Assembly (NCBI RefSeq): GCF_003030305.1
Contig: NZ_CP023676.1
Coordinates: 992,001-1,056,000 of the forward strand
Length of the DNA stretch: 64,000 bases
From: Cutibacterium acnes
Lineage (GTDB): Bacteria > Actinomycetota > Actinomycetes > Propionibacteriales > Propionibacteriaceae
Reading direction: 5' to 3'
The notes under the pieces were generated by a model, which saw nothing but the letters and a program-made list of their open reading frames with translations, made no database searches and had not been told where the DNA came from. Shown in pieces: positions 29,725 to 32,081 of this stretch (positions within the stretch are counted from its first letter, which is position 1; every line of letters starts with the position of its first letter). A program made the translations under genes and the position numbers.

Positions 29725-30600
29725 ATGACGGACCGTCCTGTACCAGCCGATAAGTCGTGGACCGCTTTGACCGATGCCGGAAGGGGGATCCTGGACGCTG
29801 TGGCGACTGCTCCGGCCACCGTTGTGCTCGCATTAGACTTTGATGGGACCTTGGCTCCCATCGTTGACGATCCTGCTGCCTCGACGATGGCACAGGAGTC
29901 CCGGGAAGCGATGTCCCGCATGGACGGCAAGTTAGCCGCGATGGCCATCGTCACCGGACGAGAGGTTGCAGCAGTGCGACGTATGACGGCCGTCGACCAG
30001 CAAGCAGGCTTAGAGCACTTGGTGGTGCTTGGACAGTACGGAGTGGAGCGATACGACGCTGCCTCTGGTGTCCTGCGAGATCCGGAAGTTCCTGAAGCGG
30101 TGCGCCTCGCCAAGGGGCGTCTTGAAGAGCTTGCGGAGGAGCTCGGCCGGGAGGATCCGCGAGATAAGGGTTGTTGGATCGAGGACAAAGGGCGCGCCGT
30201 CGCACTGCACACCCGGCGAGCCTCCGACCCGACTCATGCCCTGGCTACCGCCGTGCCGAGGGTGCGTGAGATCGCCACCGACCTGGACCTGCACGGTGAA
30301 GATGGGCGCAATATCATCGAGGTGAAATCGGCCGTCACGACGAAGGCTCAGGCCTTACGCGAGCTCATTGACGAGGTCGAGCCGCAGATTCTTATCATGT
30401 GCGGTGATGATTTGGGTGATGTCCCTGCTCTCGAAGTGGTAGCCGAGTGGATCAATGCGGGGCACCCTGGTGCCCGCGTGGTCAGTTTCTCCGGGGAGCA
30501 GCCATTAATGGCTGACTACGCCGATGTCATCTGTGATCAGACCGAGGGGATCTCAGCCTTTCTGAGAGACCTCGCAGATCGCGTCTGTGTCGAAATGTGA
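29725..30600 (+). CDS. otsB: trehalose-6-phosphate phosphatase
   Basis: HAD-superfamily phosphatase of 291 aa completing trehalose synthesis. HAD motif I is LDFDGTLAPIVDDP near residue 39, motif II is IVTGR, and the C-terminal motif is CGDDLGDVPAL. ATG 29725 is chosen because homology starts shortly after; ATG 29707 in the same frame is possible, and the open frame to 29386 overlaps otsA. Divergent from otsA across 142 bp. Confidence 0.92.
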   Translation: MTDRPVPADKSWTALTDAGRGILDAVATAPATVVLALDFDGTLAPIVDDPAASTMAQESREAMSRMDGKLAAMAIVTGREVAAVRRMTAVDQQAGLEHLVVLGQYGVERYDAASGVLRDPEVPEAVRLAKGRLEELAEELGREDPRDKGCWIEDKGRAVALHTRRASDPTHALATAVPRVREIATDLDLHGEDGRNIIEVKSAVTTKAQALRELIDEVEPQILIMCGDDLGDVPALEVVAEWINAGHPGARVVSFSGEQPLMADYADVICDQTEGISAFLRDLADRVCVEM

Positions 30601-31145
30601 TATGTAATCTCGTAATATAAGATAAATTCGGCATTTTCTTGAAAGGTCAGGGCAGCTGTGCTTGCATGCTTTCTGACGCCATTGATGACTGACGCCGCAC
30701 GGAGTAGCTCGAAAACCGGTAAATGTTGCGGTTCGGTCGGTGGTCGTGGCTAATTGGCGGAAAGGTGGAATGGTGAGCACACGCCGTGTCTGGAGTAATC
30801 GTGCCGGTCAATCGGTTATGACCTCCGCCATGATGGTGTGTATATGTCGGTGTTGTTGCTGATTTAGCCAGCACGCCGAGCATGAGCGGCTCCGTGGATG
30901 CATATCGCTCTCGTGTCTGAAGAGGTGCGCATCATGATCCATGACATTCGGTGATCGTAGTCAAGGTGACTTCTGTATTGGAGTCGTCGAAACGTCGTGA
31001 ATGGAATTCGCCATGACCCGTACCGGCCATCTTGTTGGAAAGAGGTGATGCCGGTCGGAAGATTACCGCCGAAAAGACATGACCCCACACTTACGCATAT
31101 CAGCAATTGCAATCACCGGATAGTCAATCGAAAGGACTTATCACC
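30601..31145. other. long leader region of cysK
   Basis: This 545-bp spacer has lower GC at its start. It contains the polycysteine mini-ORF at 30830-30862 and a possible hairpin at 31022-31055 (ACCGG-C-CATC paired with GATG-CCGGT, one bulge). An 18-codon frame at 30899 (MHIALVSEEVRIMIHDIR) has no ribosome binding site and is probably noise. AAAGGA lies just before the cysK ATG. No other gene is visible. Confidence 0.5.
30830..30862 (+). CDS. polycysteine leader peptide, candidate cysteine attenuator
   Basis: ATG-ATG-GTG-TGT-ATA-TGT-CGG-TGT-TGT-TGC-TGA encodes MMVCICRCCC: five of ten residues are Cys, three of them consecutive before the stop. TATGAC (30817-30822) lies 7 nt before the first ATG, as expected for a leaderless transcript. 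It is in the leader of cysK, cysteine synthase. Polycysteine leaderless short ORFs acting as cysteine-responsive attenuators are described in mycobacteria. The role here is inferred from composition and position. Confidence 0.65.
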   Translation: MMVCICRCCC

Positions 31146-32081
31146 ATGGCGAAGATCGCTAACGACGTTACCGAGCTCATCGGCAATACCCCGCTGGTCA
31201 AGATCAATAAACTGTTCCCGGACTCCCAGGCCACCGTATTGGCCAAGCTCGAGTTCTATAACCCGGCCTCGAGCGTCAAGGACCGTATCGCTACGTCGAT
31301 CGTTGACGCGGCTGAGGCTTCCGGCCAGCTCAATCCGGGAGGCACGATTGTTGAAGCCACGTCCGGTAATACAGGTGTCGGTCTGGCTCTGGTTGGTGCG
31401 GCTCGCGGTTACAAGGTCATCATCACTATGCCTGAGACAATGTCGAAGGAGCGCCGCGCCATCATTCGTCTGCTGGGTGCCGAGCTGGTGCTCACCCCAG
31501 GCGCTGACGGCGTGCCAGGAGCCAACAGCAAGGCTGCCGAGATCGTCGAGAATACCCCCGGTGCCATCCTGGCCAGCCAGTTCGATAACCCCGCTAATCC
31601 TGCGATCCATCATGATTGCACTGGTGAGGAGATCTGGAACGATACCGAGGGCGAGGTCGACGCCATCGTCGCCGGTATCGGTACCGGTGGCACCATCTCT
31701 GGCGCTGGCAAGTACCTCAAGGAGAAGGATCCCGAGATCAAGATCTTCGGTGCCGAGCCCGCCGAGTCCCCCGTCATTACTAAAGGTGACAAGGCTCCGC
31801 ACAAGATCCAGGGCTGGGGCCCGGGCTTTGTCCCGGATAACCTCGACAAGTCCGTCGTTGACGGGATCCTGCTGGTTCCCGGTGATGAGGCCATCGCCTT
31901 CGCCCGTCGCGCTGCCGCAGAAGAGGGCATTATCACGGGTATCTCCGGTGGCGGGGCCCTGCAAGCTGCCGGTCAGGTAGTCGCTCGTCCAGAGTTTGCG
32001 GGAAAGACGATCGTCGTCGTTATCGCTGACACTGGTGAGCGCTACCTGTCGACCGCTCTCTTCGAAGGCCTCCTCGATTGA
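31146..32081 (+). CDS. cysK: cysteine synthase A (O-acetylserine sulfhydrylase)
   Basis: PLP enzyme of 311 aa making cysteine from O-acetylserine and sulfide. The PLP Lys is K45 in SSVKDR, the substrate loop is TSGNTG, the phosphate-binding GIGTGGTISG, and SGGG near the C-terminus. ATG 31146 has AAAGGA upstream. No cysE follows in the window, so O-acetylserine comes from a gene elsewhere. Probably controlled through the upstream polycysteine leader. Confidence 0.95.
   Translation: MAKIANDVTELIGNTPLVKINKLFPDSQATVLAKLEFYNPASSVKDRIATSIVDAAEASGQLNPGGTIVEATSGNTGVGLALVGAARGYKVIITMPETMSKERRAIIRLLGAELVLTPGADGVPGANSKAAEIVENTPGAILASQFDNPANPAIHHDCTGEEIWNDTEGEVDAIVAGIGTGGTISGAGKYLKEKDPEIKIFGAEPAESPVITKGDKAPHKIQGWGPGFVPDNLDKSVVDGILLVPGDEAIAFARRAAAEEGIITGISGGGALQAAGQVVARPEFAGKTIVVVIADTGERYLSTALFEGLLD

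Follow-up and report, generated by a model that had tools for sequence, protein, structure and literature searches.

A cysteine-rich frame ahead of cysK

What is a run of cysteine codons doing in front of a gene of cysteine metabolism? The question is raised by a locus in a 64,000-nt stretch of the Cutibacterium acnes genome (the window), in which contiguous Cys codons placed directly before a stop (CCC and stop) stand ahead of cysK, encoding cysteine synthase A (31146..32081; TIGR01139, E 4.2e-126, 420 bits, cut-off 351); all features described here lie on the + strand. The preceding frame, which we take to be a trehalose-phosphatase-like gene, terminates at 30600, and 545 nt (30601-31145) separate it from the cysK ATG at 31146. 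An earlier note on this DNA had described in the gap a 10-codon mini-ORF, ATG ATG GTG TGT ATA TGT CGG TGT TGT TGC TGA (30830-30862, MMVCICRCCC), with TATGAC at 30817-30822, 7 nt 5' of its ATG, and 283 nt from its stop to cysK; codons, positions and distances were all given correctly. The mini-ORF is not a free-standing unit, however, being the in-frame 3' end of a 29-codon ORF (30773..30862) which runs from a GTG at 30773, 57 nt upstream of ATG 30830, to the TGA ending at 30862, with an in-frame ATG also at 30770, and which encodes VSTRRVWSNRAGQSVMTSAMMVCICRCCC. The GTG is preceded by the Shine-Dalgarno (SD) sequence GGAAAGG (30759..30765) and a 7-nt spacer. Twenty-two codons come before the first Cys, and the five putatively regulatory Cys codons, numbers 23, 25, 27, 28 and 29 (at 30839, 30845, 30851, 30854 and 30857; 30839..30859), are gathered within the last seven.

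Searches of 30601-31160 gave no Rfam match at E up to 5 and no sigma-70-like promoter over the scan threshold. Within HMMER's filters, the leader peptide matched no NCBIfam or Pfam family at E up to 10. We consider it likely that 30773-30862 is a 29-codon Cys leader peptide, read from an SD-led GTG, which controls cysK through ribosome-mediated attenuation.

Conservation within the genus

The window was compared with eight other genomes of the genus (G001-G008), nine in all, with G008 being divergent. By this comparison the genus has retained the ORF together with its SD, the start codon and the majority of the Cys codons: a Cys-rich frame stands ahead of cysK in 9/9 genomes, the frame from the GTG equivalent to 30773 runs stop-free into the Cys run in the eight others, and the translation signals are conserved, the GTG being invariant and AAGG lying 7-8 nt before it in all nine. 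The earlier note had proposed to look for the Cys codons in related genomes, and 4-5 of them are kept in each (5, 5, 5, 5, 5, 5, 4, 4 and 4; n = 9), with TGT/TGC exchanges, that is synonymous swaps, among the conserved ones; G006 and G007 have lost the first of the last three. Gaps are multiples of three, those in the Cys part amounting to 3, 3 and 9 nt among the eight closest genomes and to 12 + 12 nt in G008. A profile of the leader has a single strong match in each of the nine genomes, the remaining matches there having E values of at least 0.1. No selection on the amino acids was seen over the first 19 codons (pN/pS 0.82, equal to column shuffles), so that the assignment of the start rests on the SD, the start codon and the frame; absent amino-acid constraint is not unusual among leader peptides.

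Might the frame be a chance ORF inside an intergenic stretch? The 12-base motif TGYTGYTGYTRA occurs at 12 sites of the 2.495-Mb genome (6 + 6), no more often than its reversed control (12; 5 + 7), a result that would suit chance, and this count leads to an expectation of about 0.0013 sites per given 545-nt stretch on one strand. Ten of the 12 sites have no in-frame ATG, GTG or TTG; at one a start lies 12 codons back, and the site in the cysK leader offers several. Against chance stands the conservation of the Cys-rich frame in 9/9 genomes, where Cys codons change synonymously and gaps keep the frame; this is stronger evidence than the rarity of the motif, and the probability that we leave to a chance ORF is close to nil.

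Initiation of the leader

In the earlier note, transcription was placed at 30830 and the 10-codon polycysteine ORF was taken to be leaderless, as in mycobacteria. TATGAC, the proposed -10, does lie 7 nt upstream of ATG 30830; leaderless transcripts are a common type of mRNA in P. acnes (PMC3848588), and leaderless-type Cys ORFs are present in 14/80 cysK regions from other genera of the family (see below). TATGAC nevertheless falls within codons of the longer leader frame, and its equivalents in G001-G007 have diverged (CATGAG, CATGAA, CATGAT, CATGAC, TGTGGC, TGTGAC and CATGAG, respectively), with the CATGAT of G003 differing from TANNNT at the first base only. In none of the genomes (0/9) does an in-frame ATG or GTG have TANNNT at 5-8 nt on its 5' side; the same test gave none before GTG 30773, where an SD-led start would need none. 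Moreover, ATGATG is absent from G005 and G008, and what is conserved is the SD and the in-frame GTG 57 nt upstream. Judging by these comparisons the label "leaderless" is not supported for the cysK leader in this genus, and we hold a leaderless start at 30830 to be quite improbable.

Relics of a tsuA-tusA pair between leader and cysK

The hairpin at 31022-31055, put forward in the earlier note as a switch element, is present in the sequence but spans a deletion junction, the scar of a lost tsuA-tusA pair. In G001, G003, G006 and G007 the leader is separated from cysK by an intact TsuA-like frame; the G001 and G006 proteins match Sulf_transp (PF04143, Pfam), and the G001 transporter scores under the NCBIfam cut-offs for TsuA proper, which makes TsuA-like the safe name. 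In G001, the one genome checked, a tusA gene follows (PF01206, E 4.7e-17). In G004 (L023) the transporter is split into separate frames, a decaying gene whose neighbours, the leader and cysK, are intact.

The window aligns with tsuA starts in stretches that end at 31041, and with the end of tusA and the cysK leader over 31045-31150. Two relics can thus be placed: the 5' end of a tsuA/yeeE-like gene (PF04143) at 31013..31041, where blastn stretches ending at 31024-31041 match the starts in G001, G004, G005, G006 and G007 at E 3.5e-6 or better and that of G003 weakly (E 0.07), and the 3' end of tusA at 31044..31082, where sequence alignment sets GDAGRKITAEKT in the window against GDAGWTITVEKA in G001, each followed by a stop. 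A search of the window's genome for PF04143 gave no match. The deletion has left a small ORF, MTRTGHLVGKR (31013-31048), with the former tsuA ribosome-binding region in front, which may still be translated. G002 and G005 also have no tsuA-tusA, and their relics differ from those of the window; in G005 a 26-codon tsuA remnant, MVLTSFTEIAHGFVLLCGCCVANALL, still follows the leader (L024, at 2330).

In a cysK tree, midpoint-rooted and with several forks open, the group without tsuA-tusA (window, G002 and G005) requires at least two changes, while G008 and the sister genus g4, where leader and cysK have no tsuA between them, lie outside the clade of the other eight genomes. From this position cysK looks like the older target of the leader and tsuA-tusA like a later insertion.

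This history bears on whether the leader is a vestige, once in the service of tsuA-tusA and left over in the window when these genes were lost. The idea would fit the intact tsuA-like frame that follows the leader in G001, G003, G006 and G007 and is deleted in the window; yet the window, G002 and G005 have all kept an intact SD and start together with five Cys codons, and the arrangement in G008 and g4 makes cysK the apparent older target, so we regard a vestige as very improbable. An SD-led leader controlling cysK is in line with its retention in these three genomes and with the SD-led leaders of g4. The leader stays ahead of cysK with or without intervening genes, and its survival where tsuA-tusA are gone suggests a control that can reach over some distance and not only to the adjacent start site.

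A model for the control of cysK

With conserved Cys codons standing ahead of a cysteine synthase gene, cysteine-dependent ribosome stalling is the natural reading, and the leader probably senses cysteine shortage. When Cys-tRNA is short, the ribosome would stall in the Cys run and the transcript would extend into cysK; with ample cysteine, the ribosome would leave at TGA 30862, exposing the 283-nt untranslated stretch, and the transcript would end early, most likely through Rho since no intrinsic terminator was found. Of the interpretation in the earlier note, the Cys-codon sensor ORF in the cysK leader is supported by the 4-5 Cys codons conserved in 9/9 genomes, and the leaderless start and the hairpin switch are not supported.

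Rho-dependent attenuation is the best, though unproven, candidate for the output step. Terminator-like sites numbered 0 in 30601-31160 and a second scan of the window's gap likewise gave none; over the wider sample, a stricter scan found terminators in 3/42 leaders, against 0.1 expected from shuffles, and a looser one flagged 5/18. Two of these three, in genus g9 (L053 and L125), have, 13-20 nt past the stop of the Cys leader, GC-rich hairpins with T runs behind them, unlike most relatives, and by their sequence look like classical intrinsic-terminator attenuators. C exceeds G in 39/42 gaps between leader and next gene, which suits Rho; over 200 nt the same holds for 17/18 cysK upstream regions with a leader versus 29/62 without a detected short ORF (sORF), the latter possibly including coding sequence. 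With C at 0.25 and G at 0.26, the gap in the window itself shows no enrichment in C, so support for Rho is weak there.

A different output would be translational, the Cys run pairing near the ribosome-binding site of the next gene and a stalled ribosome freeing that site. Pairing combined with stalling is the mycobacterial model. In the window, TTGCTGAT (30856-30863) is complementary to ATCAGCAA (31099-31106, 40-47 nt before cysK), within a stretch of the cysK 5' UTR (31098..31127) that is speculatively assigned as complementary to the Cys run (duplex -22.4 kcal/mol). The pairing reached P 0.010 in the window and 0.068 in G005, with the counterpart pair TTGTTGAT/ATCAACAA, but P was at least 0.34 in the other seven genomes and below 0.05 in only 2/18 other leaders, and with 15 tests of the Cys run against cysK or tsuA leaders a single P of 0.01 (1/15) is unsurprising. 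Modelled access to the next start on blocking the leader rose from 0.14 to 0.52 for tsuA in G003, which favours such control and is the only clear opening in nine genomes; for the cysK start in the window it went just from 0.39 to 0.47, dropping in G005 and G007 and staying nearly flat in the other five (for G004 the start was set 3 nt off). Translational control is, in our judgement, unlikely as the output, and attenuation through an SD-led leader peptide remains the preferred reading.

RNA folding gave a candidate hairpin in which the leader start region is paired with the segment before the Cys codons (30773..30843; RNAalifold, eight genomes), only 2/300 conservation-matched column shuffles being as low. 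It had more than 8 expected pairs in 10/13 leaders, with P < 0.05 in 6/13 (window, P 0.065), and less than 1 in G004, G005 and G008, where the segment was placed by rule and may be misplaced. The window's own leader fold was no more stable than shuffles (z 0.22), and two-sided covariation was present in 1/35 pairs of the whole structure, a value equalled in 442/500 sets of shuffled partners. An outer helix between SD and Cys run, also suggested by RNAalifold, was not supported: over 13 leaders it had a mean of 3.36 expected pairs vs 4.71 in shuffles, with P < 0.05 in G008 only.

Cysteine leaders in other genera

A census of the family, taking one cysK locus per genome, covered 450 nt upstream of cysK and retained sORFs that were 5-45 codons long and had no fewer than 3 Cys among their final 16 codons. 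Each region was cut at its match to CysK of the window, so that some reach up to ~15-20 nt into the gene. Outside the genus, 93 genomes had a cysK match, of which 80 were counted; L038, with 114 nt upstream before the contig edge, was dropped, and 12 were left out. Cys-rich sORFs were found in 18/80, compared with 1 on the antisense strand and a mean of 1.9 (maximum 4) in shuffles. Fourteen of the 18 were of the leaderless type, the start codon having TANNNT at 6-7 nt on its 5' side, whereas the antisense and the shuffled controls both gave 0; these 14 are distributed over g8 (1/1), g9 (2/7), g12 (2/8), g16 (7/8) and g17 (2/6); "leaderless-type" and "SD" are here labels of sequence only. The other 62/80 regions are without such an sORF, which speaks against leader attenuation.

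In the sister genus g4, Cys-rich leaders stand before cysK at 4/4 readable loci. Three of them pass the census as SD-led GTG frames, and in L041, read by eye, an SD and GTG lie outside the promoter of the sORF that was counted. The genus leader profile gave no good E-values for the leaders of other genera (best outside the genus, E 0.00185), so these leaders are matched by anatomy, that is by place and Cys codons, and not by sequence.

Public records were also screened, as the best 80 matches, which were split by title into 44 actinobacterial and 36 other records; the set holds no Cutibacterium record, a few from the same family, none with an sORF, and at least two that are apparently genomes already in the family census. 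Among these best 80, Cys sORFs before cysK were present in 16/44 actinobacterial records (antisense, 2/44), 15 of the 16 with an SD-like motif and 0 of the leaderless type, and in 0/36 of the non-actinobacterial ones (antisense, 1/36). Their bearers include Actinomyces, Demequina, Cellulomonas, Cellulosimicrobium and Oerskovia. The leaders of four Actinomyces loci (L186, L189, L200 and L216) are SD-led, rich in Met and Cys, located 315-355 nt before cysK and end in CRCR; MMAMTAMCAMSPMSMCRCCRCR is an example from the same 80 matches.

A tentative history of the family, to which we would give slightly less than an even chance, could be that one Cys sensor of cysK exists with two initiation modes, SD-led here and in g4 and leaderless among part of the members of several genera, between which it has switched with the sensor itself retained, and that in this genus the sulfur-uptake pair tsuA-tusA was taken in under its control and repeatedly lost, control returning to cysK alone.

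Comparison with known systems

In mycobacteria, polycysteine leaderless short ORFs are reportedly found before cysteine genes. The leader described here shares with them a short ORF with a Cys run before a cysteine gene and the same sensing logic. It differs in that the mycobacterial ORFs start at the 5' end of the mRNA, whereas the cysK leader looks SD-led and has 22 codons before its first Cys; furthermore, the mycobacterial type is reported to act by sequestration of the ribosome-binding site, and across the nine genomes no consistent change in modelled access to the next start was seen. The mycobacterial work (Canestrari et al. 2020) is cited in PMC9094748, PMC9031893 and PMC13236596.

The earlier note had presented the mechanism as new to propionibacteria, a claim largely pre-empted by Seliverstov et al. 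2005 (PMC1262725), who predicted a leader peptide with a Cys run upstream of a cys operon of Propionibacterium acnes, which we infer to be the cysK locus studied here. The likeness extends to the short ORF, the Cys run near the stop and the absence of a conserved terminator (stated for Mycobacterium), and Rho was proposed there too. The abstract and Cysteine section of that article are silent on initiation mode, on a tsuA-tusA operon and on a leaderless/SD split in the family. The cysteine leader is real, functional-looking and largely already predicted, of a kind already proposed for these bacteria; among the matches listed in searches of an open-licence library there was no title on a Cutibacterium cysteine attenuator, and the SD-led start, the insertion and loss of the operon and the two initiation modes in one family were not found in print. 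In Streptomyces lividans, leaderless leader peptides are described in PMC8079986, none of them called cysteine-dependent in the part consulted; its Table 4 gives the metNIQ leader MSTTSDRTPATEATTTPGARCMCRRMCAF as methionine-dependent, and as this leader has three Cys codons near its end it might sense cysteine.

With the classical attenuators (trp, ilvB) the cysK leader has in common a leader peptide with codons for the end product. Those attenuators have an intrinsic terminator; none was found in the window, and two g9 relatives have one right after the leader. An intrinsic terminator bears only on the classical attenuator subtype, Rho-dependent variants doing without it. Set against these systems, our analysis revises what a cysteine sensor probably looks like in bacteria that commonly translate leaderless mRNAs, and leaderless-type and SD-led sensors before the same gene offer a natural comparison of what leaderless initiation contributes.
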